64,000 bases of DNA from Streptomyces qinzhouensis. GTDB lineage: Bacteria; Actinomycetota; Actinomycetes; Streptomycetales; Streptomycetaceae. This document shows positions 8,533-13,401 of this stretch, piece after piece. Position numbers and translations under genes: made by a program. The DNA is taken from assembly GCF_007856155.1 (NCBI RefSeq), contig NZ_CP042266.1, forward strand, positions 2,170,001 to 2,234,000, in the 5' to 3' direction. Position 1 is the stretch's first letter; each line of letters starts with the position of its first letter. A model generated the notes under the pieces. The model had not been told where the DNA came from, ran no database searches, and worked only from the letters and a program-made list of their open reading frames with translations.

Positions 8533-9477
8533 TCAGAAGCCGAGCTTGCGCAGCTGCTTGGGATCCCGCTGCCAGTCCTTGGCCACCTTGACATGCAGAT
8601 CGAGGAAGACCGGCGTGCCGAGCAGTGCCTCGATGTGCTTGCGCGATTTGGTGCCGACGTCCTTCAGCCGCTGCCCCTTGGGGCCGATGATGATCCCCTT
8701 CTGGCTGGACCGCTCGATATAGACATTGGCGTGGATGTCCAGCAGCGGACGGTCCTTGGGCCGGTTCTCGCGCGGGATCATCTCCTCGACGACCACGGCG
8801 ATGGAGTGCGGCAGCTCGTCCCGTACGCCTTCGAGCGCGGCCTCGCGGATCAGCTCGGCGACCATCACCTGCTCGGGCTCGTCGGTGAGGTCGCCCTCCG
8901 GATAGAGCGGCGGGCCCTCGGGCATCAGCGGCGCCAGCAGATCGGCGACCAGCTGCACCTGCTTGCCGCCGACCACCGACACCGGGATGATCTCGGCCCA
9001 CTCGAAGCCCAGCTCCTGACCGAGCTGGTCGATGGCGATGAGCTGCTCGGCGAGGGTCTTGGAGTCCACCAGATCGGTCTTGGTGACGATGGCGACCTTC
9101 GGGGTCTTCTTGATCCCGGCCAGTTCCTTGGCGATGAAGCGGTCGCCGGGGCCCAGCTTCTGGTCCGCGGGCAGACAGAAGCCGATCACGTCGACCTCGG
9201 CCCAGGTGGTGCGGACGACGTCGTTGAGCCGCTCGCCGAGCAGGGTGCGCGGCTTGTGCAGGCCGGGCGTGTCGACCAGGATCAGCTGGGCGTCCGGGCG
9301 GTGCACGATCCCGCGCACGGTGTGCCGGGTGGTCTGGGGCCGGTTGGAGGTGATCGCCACCTTCTGGCCGACCAGAGCGTTCGTGAGGGTGGACTTGCCC
9401 GCGTTGGGGCGGCCGACGAAACAGGCGAAGCCCGCCCGGTGGGGGGCGGACTCGGTGGGCTGGGTACGGACGCTCAT
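8533..9477 (-). CDS. era: GTPase Era
   Basis: Ribosome-assembly GTPase that binds 16S rRNA near its 3' end and helps mature the 30S subunit. The 314-aa protein has G1 GRPNAGKSTL (about residue 22), G2/switch I NRPQTTRHTVRG, G3 DTPGLHKPR, G4 TKTD and a C-terminal KH domain with GIIIGPKGQRLKDVG. The ATG at 9477 (MSVRTQPTES) puts the P-loop at the expected distance; a longer frame exists upstream but is low-complexity. It converges with the inhibitor gene across 71 bp. Confidence 0.97.
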   Translation of the reverse strand: MSVRTQPTESAPHRAGFACFVGRPNAGKSTLTNALVGQKVAITSNRPQTTRHTVRGIVHRPDAQLILVDTPGLHKPRTLLGERLNDVVRTTWAEVDVIGFCLPADQKLGPGDRFIAKELAGIKKTPKVAIVTKTDLVDSKTLAEQLIAIDQLGQELGFEWAEIIPVSVVGGKQVQLVADLLAPLMPEGPPLYPEGDLTDEPEQVMVAELIREAALEGVRDELPHSIAVVVEEMIPRENRPKDRPLLDIHANVYIERSSQKGIIIGPKGQRLKDVGTKSRKHIEALLGTPVFLDLHVKVAKDWQRDPKQLRKLGF

Positions 9478-9647
9478 GCCGTTCATTGTCCCCGATGCGG
9501 GCCGCCGCTGTGTCCGCTCCCCCGCCGGGGCGCCGCGGATGTCGTTCCGGAGGGCCGTTAAGGCCGTCAGGACCCCGCGGTCGGGGCCCTTCGGGTGGCC
9601 GTACGGCACCCTCCGCGCGCGCCTCGTCCGGCCCCGGCCCGTCCGGT

Positions 9648-10625
9648 TCAGGGTGCGGCCGAGGCGCGGCGGGCCCGGCGGCGGGCCCGGACCGCGAGGC
9701 CGCCGCCCGCGGCGAGCAGCGCCAGCGCGACGGCGGGCAGCCACGGCACGGCGATGTACCGCGCGCCGGCGGACTCGCGGACGTCCGGTGCGGTCGCGGT
9801 GAGCCGTATCTCACCCCATTCGGCCTGCGGCGCGTCCCGCCAGCGCTCGGTGAGCCGGATCCGCTGCCGGGGCAGCAGCTGGGACGGGACGCCGGTCAGC
9901 TCCCGCTTCAGCAGGGTGCGGCCGAAGAGCCCCTCGGCGGTGAGGGCGACCTTCGGGGCGAGGGTCGTATTGCCCCGGTTGTGGAGGGTGTACGAGATCA
10001 GGGCGCGGCTCTCGCCGGTGCCGGGCAGCAGCGGGCGGTCCTGGCGCACCGCCACGTCCTCGACGGAGAGCGCGGACACGGCGGGGCCGGTCACCCGCAG
10101 ATGGATCCGGGCGCCCACGGCCTGCCGGACGCCGACCGCGACGGACCCGCCCGCGGTGGCGATCCGCTCGTCGAGGGCGACCAGGGCGCCGGCGTGGTCA
10201 CCGGGCTCGGCGTCCTCGGGGACGGTCAGCGTGTAGGGGACGGTGACGGAGCCGCGCGGGGGGACGGTGACCCGCTCCCGGCCGGGCCGGGCCCAGGCGC
10301 CGATACCGCGCTGCCGTTCGGTGACCGCGCGGACGGCGAAGCCGCCGTCACGCTCGGTGTTGTAGGCGTCGGCCGCGTACAGCCGGAAGGAGAGGGGGGC
10401 GGTGGTCTTGTTGGTGATGGTGACCCGGTCGGTGAGGGTGGCGCCGGGTCCGGCCGCGAGATGGAAGTAGGGCCGTCCGCCGAGCGCGGAGGCGACGGGG
10501 TAGACGGACCACTCGCCGTTCTCGGCGGCCCGGGCGGTAACGGCGGGCGTGAACAGGGTGAACAGGGTGAGCAGGGTGGTCAGGAGCGCGGGGAGAACGG
10601 GGCGGGGCGTCGGGGGCCTGGGCAT
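9648..10625 (-). CDS. DUF916/WxL-interacting-type exported membrane protein
   Basis: A 325-aa exported protein. A signal peptide (ending TARA/AENGEW near residue 34) is followed by an immunoglobulin-like domain with WSVYPVASALGGRPYFHLAAGP, TDRVTITNKTTAPLSFRLYA and VTVPPRGSVTVPYTLTVPEDAEPGDHAGALVA. This pattern (N-T-T/S, 'P-G-D-H-x-G-A') is that of DUF916, the peptidoglycan-binding domain of WxL-interacting proteins. A second beta domain follows, then a C-terminal transmembrane helix (about 290-312) and a basic tail. It lies 60 bp after the WxL-like gene and is probably its operon partner. Role inferred: holding a surface protein on the wall. Confidence 0.85.
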   Translation of the reverse strand: MPRPPTPRPVLPALLTTLLTLFTLFTPAVTARAAENGEWSVYPVASALGGRPYFHLAAGPGATLTDRVTITNKTTAPLSFRLYAADAYNTERDGGFAVRAVTERQRGIGAWARPGRERVTVPPRGSVTVPYTLTVPEDAEPGDHAGALVALDERIATAGGSVAVGVRQAVGARIHLRVTGPAVSALSVEDVAVRQDRPLLPGTGESRALISYTLHNRGNTTLAPKVALTAEGLFGRTLLKRELTGVPSQLLPRQRIRLTERWRDAPQAEWGEIRLTATAPDVRESAGARYIAVPWLPAVALALLAAGGGLAVRARRRARRASAAP

Positions 10626-10685
10626 GGGTGCGGTTCCCCGGGGTCGGGGGCGGCCGGGCGGGTGCGGGCGCCGGCCGCCGGGTGG

Positions 10686-12053
10686 TCAGGTCAGGGTGAG
10701 GGTGAGCACCCCGGTGTAGGAGCCGGGCGGGGTGAACGCGGGGACGTTCAGCGACAGCTTCGCGTCCACGGTGAACTCGCCTCCGGTCATGGCCCCGTTG
10801 GAGGTGGAGGCCAGGGTGGCGCCCCCGGTGCCGACGGCCCCGGCGGACCCGGGGACGCAGGTGCTGGGACTGCCCGCCTTGGTGGCGCAGGCCGGGGTCC
10901 AGCTCAGGGCCCCGGCGTCGATCCGGCCACCGGGTCCGGTGAAGTCGGTGACCTTGCCGGTGAGGGACCAGCCCGCGGGGCCGCCGCGGAAGTCCTTGAC
11001 GGTCACCTTCTGCAGATCGCCGGCCGCCGCCCCGCCGGTGCCGAAGTCCACGCCGGACAGCTGGACGGCGTCCCCGGCCTGGGTCATCGACAGGGTGCCC
11101 GCGGTCACGGACGCGGTCAGCTTCTGGCTGTTCCGCGGCAGCGGGGTGTCGTCGATCACGGTGTACGCGGCCGGTCCTGCGCCCTGGTCGGCGGTCCAGG
11201 CCGGTCCCTCGTACGCCACGATCCCGGTGGTCGCCTTGTCGTTGACCTTGAGCCGGGCGGTGAAGGCGCCGTCGGCATCGGCCTTGAAGGTCAGTTTGTC
11301 GGCGGTCTGGGCGGCCCCCGCGCGGCCGGCGACGGTGATGTCGGCGAGCGGGGTGAACTTGCTGCCGCTGACGGTGACCCGCTCCCCGGGTCTGCCGGAC
11401 GCGGTGGCGAGGGTGATGGCGCGTTCATTGGCGCCCGGCCGCTCGGTGGCGATGATCGTCTGCGAGACGGGCGCGGGCGGGCCGGCGACCGTACAGGGAG
11501 TGTCGAGCTCCATGATGTAACTGGTGTGGATGTTGTAGTCGCCGGGCGAGAGGGTGATCGAACCGGCCGTGGTGACCGTGAAGGTCCCGGTCATCGAGAA
11601 CGGCGGAAATTCGCCCTTCCCCGGTACTGGCGGGTTCTTCTTGGGTCCGGCGACGGTGAGGCTGCCGGACTGGGCGCCGCCGAGGGTCACCTTGCCGGTG
11701 GGGGTCATGATGTCGGCGGGCAGGGCGAGGTCGACCGGATTGCTGGCGGCGGGCTTGCCGACCCGGTAGGTGACGGTGACGACATCGCCGACCCGCGGCG
11801 CGGCGTTGTCGACGGTGATCTCGGCGGTGGTGGTGCCGTTGATGGGCGGGATGCCCGCGATCGGGGGCGGGACACAGCGGGTCGCGAAGTCCACCGGCGC
11901 GGCGGCGGTGGTCGTCGCGCCCGCGGGCGCGGTGAGGACGACGGTGGACGCCAGCAGCGCCGCCCCGCCGACCGCCGCGGCCCACCGCCGGGGACGGCCC
12001 GGGGCCGGTCCGGCAGCTGGTCTTCGCCCGGCGGTCCGGGTGGCAAGGGACAT
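10686..12053 (-). CDS. Secreted WxL-like surface protein
   Basis: A 455-aa secreted protein with a signal peptide (cleavage near PAGA/TTTAAAP). Residues about 40-180 form a beta domain bracketed by two cysteines (ATRCVPPP and LDTPCTVAG) resembling the whole of the small protein encoded upstream. A middle TIG-like domain follows (ASGRPGERVTVSGSKFTPLADITVAG). The C-terminal 180 aa resemble a WxL domain: GWSLTGKVTDFTG, LSWTPAC, and the ending GSYTGVLTLTLT. The second of two nearby ATGs (12053) is chosen because AAGGAGG lies seven bases before it. A 15-bp palindrome sits about 126 bp upstream. Confidence 0.78.
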   Translation of the reverse strand: MSLATRTAGRRPAAGPAPGRPRRWAAAVGGAALLASTVVLTAPAGATTTAAAPVDFATRCVPPPIAGIPPINGTTTAEITVDNAAPRVGDVVTVTYRVGKPAASNPVDLALPADIMTPTGKVTLGGAQSGSLTVAGPKKNPPVPGKGEFPPFSMTGTFTVTTAGSITLSPGDYNIHTSYIMELDTPCTVAGPPAPVSQTIIATERPGANERAITLATASGRPGERVTVSGSKFTPLADITVAGRAGAAQTADKLTFKADADGAFTARLKVNDKATTGIVAYEGPAWTADQGAGPAAYTVIDDTPLPRNSQKLTASVTAGTLSMTQAGDAVQLSGVDFGTGGAAAGDLQKVTVKDFRGGPAGWSLTGKVTDFTGPGGRIDAGALSWTPACATKAGSPSTCVPGSAGAVGTGGATLASTSNGAMTGGEFTVDAKLSLNVPAFTPPGSYTGVLTLTLT

Positions 12054-12178
12054 GGACATGCCTCCTTCGGAAGGCTTCACGGGGTCCGGGGAATCACCGG
12101 GATCCGGGATCCCGGGACCCGCGGACGGCCATTGACGAGCGGTGGCCGAAAGAAGTCAAGGCGGACGAGACCCGCCAA

Positions 12179-12193
12179 CTGATGACCCATCAG
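12179..12193. promoter_or_regulatory. 15-bp palindrome upstream of the WxL-like operon
   Basis: Minus strand reads CTGATGGGTCATCAG, a near-perfect inverted repeat. A related site (CCGACGGATCGTCAG) lies upstream of the neighbouring secreted-protein gene; the two agree at 11 of 15 positions and the differences are all transitions. This suggests a shared operator or extended promoter element. Confidence 0.55.
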
Positions 12194-12229
12194 ATAATGT
12201 CAGGGTTCCGGCCCCGCGGCGGAAAAGCG

Positions 12230-12265
12230 CCGCCCCCGCCCGGCGGCACGGCCGGGTGGGGGCGG
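12230..12265 (-). terminator. Hairpin after the small secreted-protein gene
   Basis: CCGCCCCCGCCCGGC pairs with GCCGGGTGGGGGCGG across a 6-nt loop, 15 bp with one G-T type mismatch. It lies about 50 nt after the stop of the 12316-12831 gene, as expected for its terminator. No T tract. Confidence 0.6.
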
Positions 12266-12315
12266 TACGGAGCCGGGGCCGGGCGGCCGCGCGGACCGCG
12301 GCCCCGGCGGGCCGG

Positions 12316-12831
12316 TCAGAACACGAACGGCCCCGGCGACTGGGAGGTCACCGCGTCACAGCTGACCGGGAACCCGAAGATCGACATCGTCAGCGCCGGT
12401 CCGGCGAAGTACGAGTTGAGGGTGTCCCCGGGCGCGACCGTCGCCGACAGCGGCCCGATCTCGACCGGGCCCCAGGCCGGGAGCGCCGGGTTCCGGGTGC
12501 CGGTGAACGACTTCGTACCGCCGCCGGCCTTGGCGAAGGTGAGCGTCGCGTTGATGCTGTCGGCGCCCACCGCGACCGGCGTCATGACCGCGGACCGCAG
12601 GGTGATGGTCGCCCTGGTCCCGGACTGGGTGGCGGTCAGCCTGGCCTGGCCGCCGCCCCAGGTGCCGCAGTCGTAGTCGGCCGTCGCCAGGGTCGGCGTG
12701 ACCGCCCCGGCGGCGGGGGCATAGGCCAGCGACAGGGCGGCCAGCGCCGCCGCCGTCACCGTACCGACCCCCGCGAGCCTCCGCCCGGACCGGGCCCGGC
12801 CGCCGCCTCTGGTGTCTCTGCTGCCTCGCAT
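12316..12831 (-). CDS. Small secreted protein related to the WxL-like N-terminal domain
   Basis: A 171-aa exported protein: basic N-terminus, hydrophobic core VGTVTAAALAALSLAYAPAAGA, cleavage near AGA/VTPT, mature chain about 125 aa. It has two cysteines (ATADYDCGTWGGG and FPVSCDAVTS) that could form one disulfide. The layout (C ... APGDTLNSYFAG ... SC) resembles residues 40-180 of the neighbouring WxL-like protein, suggesting a shared domain. It is probably secreted or wall-associated; the function is unknown. ATG 12831 chosen, as residues before it are not signal-like. Confidence 0.8.
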   Translation of the reverse strand: MRGSRDTRGGGRARSGRRLAGVGTVTAAALAALSLAYAPAAGAVTPTLATADYDCGTWGGGQARLTATQSGTRATITLRSAVMTPVAVGADSINATLTFAKAGGGTKSFTGTRNPALPAWGPVEIGPLSATVAPGDTLNSYFAGPALTMSIFGFPVSCDAVTSQSPGPFVF

Positions 12832-13401
12832 ACGTACCCCTTTCGCGTCCCCGTGGGGGATCGTCGGTGCAGCGCGCCGCGCACGGGCACCCGACAGCGG
12901 TTGACGTCGCGTCATACGCGCGTACGGGCACACCGCGCCGGAGGCTGCGGTCACAAGGGTGTGCATGGATCGCCGGTGAACTCCGCGGGCGGGGTGCGCA
13001 CGCCGCGCGGCGGAAAAGACGGCCGGAGCCGGTTCGGAACCGCGGCTCGGGTTCCGGACCGGGCCGTCACGGTGGATCTGACGATCCGTCGGTTGAGCTG
13101 CTGTTCATTGATGCGCAACCGACCGGGGATTACAAGACGATTCCCCTTGATTTCTCAGGTTCTTCCACGGCCGACCCATTTCAGAGCCGCCGAATCGCCC
13201 CAGACGTGCCGACGCCCCCCGAGACCCAGGAGCGCCGGGGCGCTGGAGCCCTGAAGCCCTGGGGCGCTGGGGCGCTGGGGGTCCCCACGCCGCCAGGCGT
13301 AAGGGGCGCGAGGAACTGCGCGAGCACCCACTCACGGCCGGCAGCCGGGACACAAGGCCCCCCGTACGGCGCGCCCCGCGCGCCCCGCGCCCCCCGCGTC
13401 G
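12832..13401. other. Intergenic region upstream of the small secreted-protein gene
   Basis: No convincing gene. It holds the second copy of the palindrome (13078-13092), a relatively AT-rich patch around 13100-13190 that may contain the promoter, and a short low-complexity stretch of GGGGCGCT units near 13260. Short open frames here lack a ribosome site and codon bias. Confidence 0.6.
13078..13092. promoter_or_regulatory. Second copy of the palindrome, upstream of the small secreted-protein gene
   Basis: Minus strand reads CCGACGGATCGTCAG, matching the consensus CYGAYGGRTCRTCAG shared with 12179-12193. It lies about 247 bp before the gene start. Confidence 0.5.

Follow-up and report, generated by a model that had tools for sequence, protein, structure and literature searches.

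A WxL-like surface-protein locus of Streptomyces qinzhouensis shares a conserved palindrome with genes of CoA-dependent catabolism

Our question was whether three neighboring genes for proteins with signal-like N-termini in Streptomyces qinzhouensis, two of which are preceded by a common palindrome, form an actinobacterial version of the wall-bound WxL complexes of Firmicutes, and what such a complex would serve. The genes lie in a 64,000-nucleotide stretch (the window; G000:C1:2170001-2234000) of an 8.15 Mb single-contig genome. They encode P0001, with a DUF916 domain, P0002, with a WxL-like C-terminus, and the small protein P0003 (325, 457 and 171 amino acids (aa)); all three open reading frames are present, on the minus strand. 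We found that the palindrome is conserved and that most of its exact copies lie at genes for coenzyme A (CoA)-dependent catabolism. With a probability of about one half, we read the locus as a surface system of the broad WxL/WxL-interacting-protein (WxLIP) type that is co-regulated with this catabolism and captures hydrophobic substrates at the wall.

The palindrome and the genes it marks

The two palindromes of the locus (Table 1) match the originally proposed string exactly, on the minus strand. Because that string had been fitted to these two sites, its 0 matches in 100 shuffles are a post hoc result, and within the window alone two sites of the generic pattern with one mismatch are not above chance (shuffle mean 0.76, with 17 of 100 shuffles reaching 2). 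What raises the palindromes above chance are the genome-wide and genus-wide counts, together with the conservation at the P0002 locus. Without mismatches, the pattern CTGAYGNNNCRTCAG (CTGAYG-N3-CRTCAG) occurs 20 times in the genome and its reversed form not once; with one mismatch allowed, CTGAYGRNYCRTCAG is found 69 times against 9 in the control. By the gene calls made here, 17 of the 20 exact copies are intergenic (binomial p of 2e-13 to 8e-10 at an assumed intergenic fraction of 0.12-0.20); the true p is weaker, though still small, because 24.5% of the window received no gene call. Over 150 Streptomyces genomes (this one included) there is a mean of 22.4 palindromes per genome against 0.67 for the control. 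In another family of the order (f3) each of the 14 genomes has 10-37 against 0-2, whereas the only genome from a third family has no copy. Of the papers that spellings of the core retrieved from the open-access library searched, none is on bacterial regulation, judged by title.

At the locus itself, the claim that two transcription units carry a common palindrome was borne out by orthologs. In 38 P0002-type loci from other genomes the upstream palindrome is exact in 34 and has one mismatch in 2 (L070, L075) and two mismatches in L222; it is absent from L215, where the gene is truncated. These loci are not independent draws, since they share ancestry. Across 30 promoters anchored on the WxL motif (the own one included) column information is 1.97 bits in the invariant arms, 1.30 at the Y/R positions, 0.95 in the center and 0.63 in the flanks. 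Anchoring on a P0003 gene was possible in 19 of the 39 loci (again with the own one), and its one-mismatch site is kept in 18 of these, mostly as CCGACGGNCCGTCAG. Reversed-sequence controls at the P0002 promoters and at those of the paralogous locus described below gave no exact match. P0001 and P0002 are probably one transcription unit, as they share a strand and only 60 bp separate the end of P0002 from the start of P0001. In 31 of 32 promoters a TTGAC follows at offset 33 or 34, counted from the start of the P0002 palindrome, often with RTCAAT after it, and 13 of the 32 have a TTGAC-N18-GTCAA inverted repeat. If TTGAC is the -35 box, the palindrome would sit near -63; at most catabolic genes it is far nearer the start codon than at P0002. 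In L219, L224 and L225 the gene upstream is AraC-like by eye, and the P0002 palindrome overlaps its 3' end.

The original prediction had asked whether the palindrome marks other genes for secreted proteins, and this is not mainly the case. Among the 17 intergenic exact sites, 12 are at CoA-dependent catabolic genes, 2 at DUF916 loci and 3 at other genes; the remaining 3 exact sites are intragenic. Many one-mismatch sites lie within coding sequence and are probably chance; others include those at the operons and the gene pair listed in Table 1. The 36 proteins flanking sites include acyl-CoA dehydrogenases (3), luciferase-like proteins (3), thiolases (2), MaoC (2), Amidohydro_2 (2) and SDR (2) among the best 25 of 48 families. 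As a base rate, 43 other proteins of the window gave one AMP-binding and one nitronate monooxygenase match, and none of the site-flanking families just named, among the best 25 of 67 families, where weaker single matches may hide. The same kinds of genes carry palindromes in a catabolic cluster of four further genomes (G106, G036, G013, G114), and in a sister family (G151, G152) palindromes lie, among other places, at genes for CoA ligase, F420 oxidoreductase and acyl-CoA dehydrogenase. A large regulator gene, SARP/AfsR-like by eye, adjoins the palindromes of the catabolic cluster in several species.

The motif and the surface proteins also occur together across genomes. Of the 150 genomes, 94 encode a P0002-type protein (E<=1e-20, either locus), and each of these 94 has at least 17 exact sites; among the 13 genomes with <=5 sites there is none with such a protein. 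The surface loci add just one or two sites to each count, and the statistic ignores phylogeny. The second of these, the paralogous surface locus, lies at 2816-2822 kb in this genome and also has an exact palindrome, at 2821371, 22 bp ahead of its first gene. Over 23 such loci the site is exact in 19, with one mismatch in 1 and two mismatches in 2 (1 unassessed). The proteins encoded there are one of 227 aa with an LPKTG-like tail, a DUF916-like one with 37% identity to P0001, one of 328 aa that matches the neocarzinostatin profile (31.0 bits, cut-off 25) and one of 482 aa that shows 38% identity to P0002 over its first half and has an LADTG-like tail (both tails by eye). A PF06030 search of this genome finds P0001 alone and not the paralogous DUF916-like protein.

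Three predicted surface proteins and their setting

P0001 has a signal-like N-terminus, DUF916 (PF06030) at residues 52-148, a second region, a C-terminal hydrophobic segment (~292-312) and an RARRRARR tail. The DUF916 assignment is above the Pfam cut-off (32.5 bits, cut-off 27.3), and at E<=1 the profile is found in 15 of 16 family members. For the proposed membrane anchor we can point to the hydrophobic segment, seen by eye, after which RR is invariant in all 16 aligned sequences, and for export to the signal-like N-termini of all three proteins, also by eye. In a profile search of the 16 members, DUF3324 was absent from the 13 families matched at E<=1. There are at least 798 homologs at E<=0.001; public relatives are named 'WxL protein peptidoglycan domain-containing protein' or 'DUF916' and, among the matches listed, are from Streptomyces wherever an organism is named.

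For P0002, the ribosome-binding site makes a start at 12053 more likely than one at 12059. For the predicted WxL domain, PF13731 gives a weak match of 15.3 bits, under its cut-off of 25; in the family it is matched at E<=1 in 26 of 30 members, with a best E of 3.3e-4. The first W-x-L motif is invariant, while at the position of the second no member of the 30 has a Trp, all having L-x-L instead. The middle domain is a fold match only. PF00960 (the neocarzinostatin family) has no match in P0002 at E<=1; it matches 1 of 30 homologs weakly (E 0.011). P0002 has at least 749 homologs at E<=0.001, which, among the matches listed, are from Streptomyces wherever an organism is named; the nearest named relatives of both P0002 and P0003 among those listed come from Streptomyces tsukubensis. 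Most named public relatives of P0002 are called 'beta-xylosidase' and a few 'WxL domain-containing protein'. The former label has no support in the profile searches made here and is probably a propagated misannotation.

P0003 has 172 homologs at E<=0.001, from Streptomyces wherever an organism is named (best 120 of 172). It has no Pfam match, nothing in NCBIfam better than E 0.13 and no W-x-L by eye. Its proposed likeness to the N-terminal domain of P0002 does not appear directly (hhalign probability 5.1%, E 0.0078) but is likely indirectly, because both can be matched to the 227-aa protein encoded at the paralogous locus (identities of 30% and 29%, with a pairwise E of 3e-9 in either case). 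P0002 is alone in being WxL-like at the locus, with no pair of small and large WxL proteins beside the WxLIP. We call the system WxL-like because it has no DUF3324 match, its second motif is L-x-L and there is no separate small WxL protein. On these three points it falls outside the WxL clusters in the strict sense, whereas the predicted pair of a WxLIP-like and a WxL-like protein in an actinobacterium is supported.

The three genes are set between era and yjbR-, corC- and ybeY-like genes (neighbors by eye); the families that other proteins of the window match include PF01595 and PF02130. P0001 and P0002 adjoin era in 6 orthologous loci and a P-II-like gene in several others, so that gene order is variable. 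A third group of P0002-like secreted proteins (L207-L214), in places adjoining a DUF916-like protein, is without exact palindromes; L211 of this group also carries a P0003-like gene.

Table 1. Features of the locus (window coordinates) and palindrome-associated positions elsewhere (genome coordinates)
Feature	Position	Strand	Basis or remark
Window coordinates
era	8536-9609		by eye
P0001, DUF916 (WxLIP peptidoglycan-binding domain) protein, 325 aa	9648..10625	-	PF06030 profile and by-eye features
P0002, predicted secreted WxL-like protein, 457 aa	10686..12059	-	N-terminal beta domain, neocarzinostatin-fold middle, WxL-like C-terminus
C-terminal LTLTLT of P0002, at the position of the second W-x-L of classical WxL domains	10689..10706	-	L452-T453-L454-T455-L456 invariant in 30/30
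First W-x-L motif of P0002 (GWSL)	10962..10973	-	W364, L366 invariant in 30/30 members
P0002 middle domain, residues 211-302, neocarzinostatin-like fold	11154..11429	-	fold match
TTGACT, -35-like element 19 bp downstream of P0002 palindrome	12154..12159	-	GTCAAT at 12131-12136, spacer 17
Palindrome CTGATGACCCATCAG, upstream of P0002	12179..12193	.	conserved upstream of orthologs
P0003, predicted secreted small beta-sandwich protein, 171 aa	12316..12831	-	homolog search; predicted structure, pLDDT 83.9
Palindrome CTGACGATCCGTCGG, upstream of P0003, one mismatch to generic pattern	13078..13092	.	pattern search
Genome coordinates
Exact sites at unrelated genes	4049388 (IucA/IucC), 7606124, 7618000
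One-mismatch sites	2007507, 2007530		MaoC/ADH/SDR operon
One-mismatch site	2035429		P450 and thiolase pair
One-mismatch site	3732309		ChsH1/ChsH2-like hydratase and lipid-transfer operon
KstR-type box and palindrome together	G000:C1:2007444-2007544, 2013487-2013517
SARP/AfsR-like genes	G000:C1:3168835-3171699; G036:C1:855858-858833; L140 (G013); L141 (G114)

Explanations for the shared palindrome

In the mechanism that we propose, P0001, through its membrane segment and DUF916, would hold P0002 at the cell wall by the WxL-like C-terminus of the latter, and P0003 would be a small secreted partner. The palindrome in both promoters is a putative operator of one transcription factor, whose other predicted targets are mostly genes by which steroid-type or other hydrophobic ring compounds would be degraded in a CoA-dependent manner. 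The complex would be made when this catabolic regulon is on, and its likeliest role would be to bind or concentrate such substrates at the wall, with the neocarzinostatin-like domain of P0002 as the candidate binding site. A wall-held P0001-P0002 complex for substrate capture is suggested by analogy with the WxL clusters of Firmicutes and the csc clusters of Lactobacillus plantarum.

The same palindrome could be that of a broad metabolic or growth-phase regulator, which also controls CoA-dependent catabolism, and the locus a general wall-maturation or developmental surface system with no substrate role. Exact sites at unrelated genes (Table 1) would fit such a regulator, as would the P0002 promoter, which has its own conserved TTGAC with the palindrome upstream, as in a modulated housekeeping promoter. 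However, we consider this account possible but unlikely given that catabolic genes account for 12 of the 20 exact sites, that the 13 genomes with few sites have no P0002-type match and that two separate surface loci have kept the palindrome. It is more improbable still that the locus is an ordinary WxL cluster taken from Firmicutes, which would function as in enterococci and lactobacilli as a peptidoglycan platform with adhesion domains. While such an origin agrees with the DUF916 score, the weak WxL matches and the adjacency of the genes, it does not agree with the lack of a DUF3324 match in 16 members, of the second W-x-L in 30 of 30 and of a small WxL protein. A near full-length match with >=55% identity in 45 of the 150 Streptomyces genomes (this one included) also suggests an old vertical presence.

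As for the regulator, no candidate was found within the window and three further candidates were uninformative. A KstR-like TetR repressor (G000:C1:2021885-2022499) sits among palindromes, scores 194 bits with NF033703 (below the cut-off of 280) and has KstR as its best named PDB matches. The exact palindrome lies in the first codons of its gene here and in the sister-family genome G151, and KstR-type boxes, for which we take the consensus to be TnnAACnnGTTnnA, share two catabolic promoters with palindromes (2007444 with 2007530; 2013487 with 2013503), which suggests dual control there. That this protein binds the palindrome, and that the locus belongs to the KstR regulon, nevertheless seems to us very improbable. 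The box upstream of the KstR-like gene is present in 30 of 30 loci and the intragenic palindrome is exact in just 1 of 30; two genomes with 38 and 23 sites (G044, G071) have no KstR-like match at E<=1e-40 among the best 21 candidates scored per genome; and 9 of the 13 genomes with <=5 palindromes do have one, so that its presence does not track motif count. None of the 23 TNNAACNNGTTNNA matches of the genome falls inside the window.

Passages of a 2016 survey report steroid pathways in just 2 of 57 Streptomyces genomes (PMC4810484), which makes the substrate uncertain. In the same passages Mce4 steroid uptake is reported only from mycolic-acid bacteria, and steroid uptake outside these Mce4-bearing bacteria is not identified (PMC4810484). 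A bolder proposal is that in non-mycolic actinobacteria without Mce4 a wall-anchored WxL/DUF916-like complex with a neocarzinostatin-type binding domain acts as the surface receptor for carbon sources resembling steroids or terpenoids, and is induced jointly with the catabolic genes as part of a new regulon that spans the genus and has CTGAYGNNNCRTCAG as its operator; we hold this to be doubtful. If the complex is part of steroid uptake, the question of uptake without Mce4 becomes directly testable. Secreted proteins that are common in Streptomyces and now called beta-xylosidase or hypothetical gain a role that can be tested, and a candidate operator sequence is at hand for a large set of genes found in most of the sampled Streptomyces genomes.

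Comparison with known systems

The KstR regulon, which governs cholesterol catabolism in mycobacteria and their relatives, covers enzymes of much the same types (ChsH-like hydratase, lipid-transfer thiolase, HsaB-like reductase and acyl-CoA dehydrogenases), and this genome also has a KstR-like protein and KstR-type boxes, but the palindrome CTGAYGNNNCRTCAG is unlike the KstR box, and in those bacteria uptake is by Mce4. Neocarzinostatin and macromomycin apoproteins are free chromophore carriers, whereas P0002 has one such domain within a putative wall protein. A structure match to 3lso, a putative membrane-anchored protein of Corynebacterium diphtheriae, has 12% identity and a root-mean-square deviation of 15.3 A, so the domain arrangement differs or is uncertain.

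In architecture the locus compares with the WxL clusters of Firmicutes, whose WxLIP has the order DUF916-DUF3324-TM and where, in the parts of two papers drawn on here, a DUF916 protein with a C-terminal hydrophobic segment stands beside a secreted protein with a C-terminal W-x-L beta-domain, the two being proposed as a wall-bound platform (PMC10599100, PMC9772566). According to the same parts most WxL clusters have an LPxTG protein; here the LPKTG- and LADTG-like tails are in the paralogous locus. The present locus differs in having no DUF3324 match, an L-x-L second motif, a single WxL-like protein, an actinobacterial host and a palindrome common to catabolic genes. In this last respect it resembles the csc clusters of Lactobacillus plantarum, which, in the portion of the report used, are wall-complex genes with catabolite-responsive element (CRE) sites, the operator of the carbon-catabolism regulator CcpA, and a proposed role in carbon acquisition (PMC1534035). 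There the regulation concerns sugars and catabolite repression, whereas here it would concern the CoA-dependent catabolism of hydrophobic compounds.

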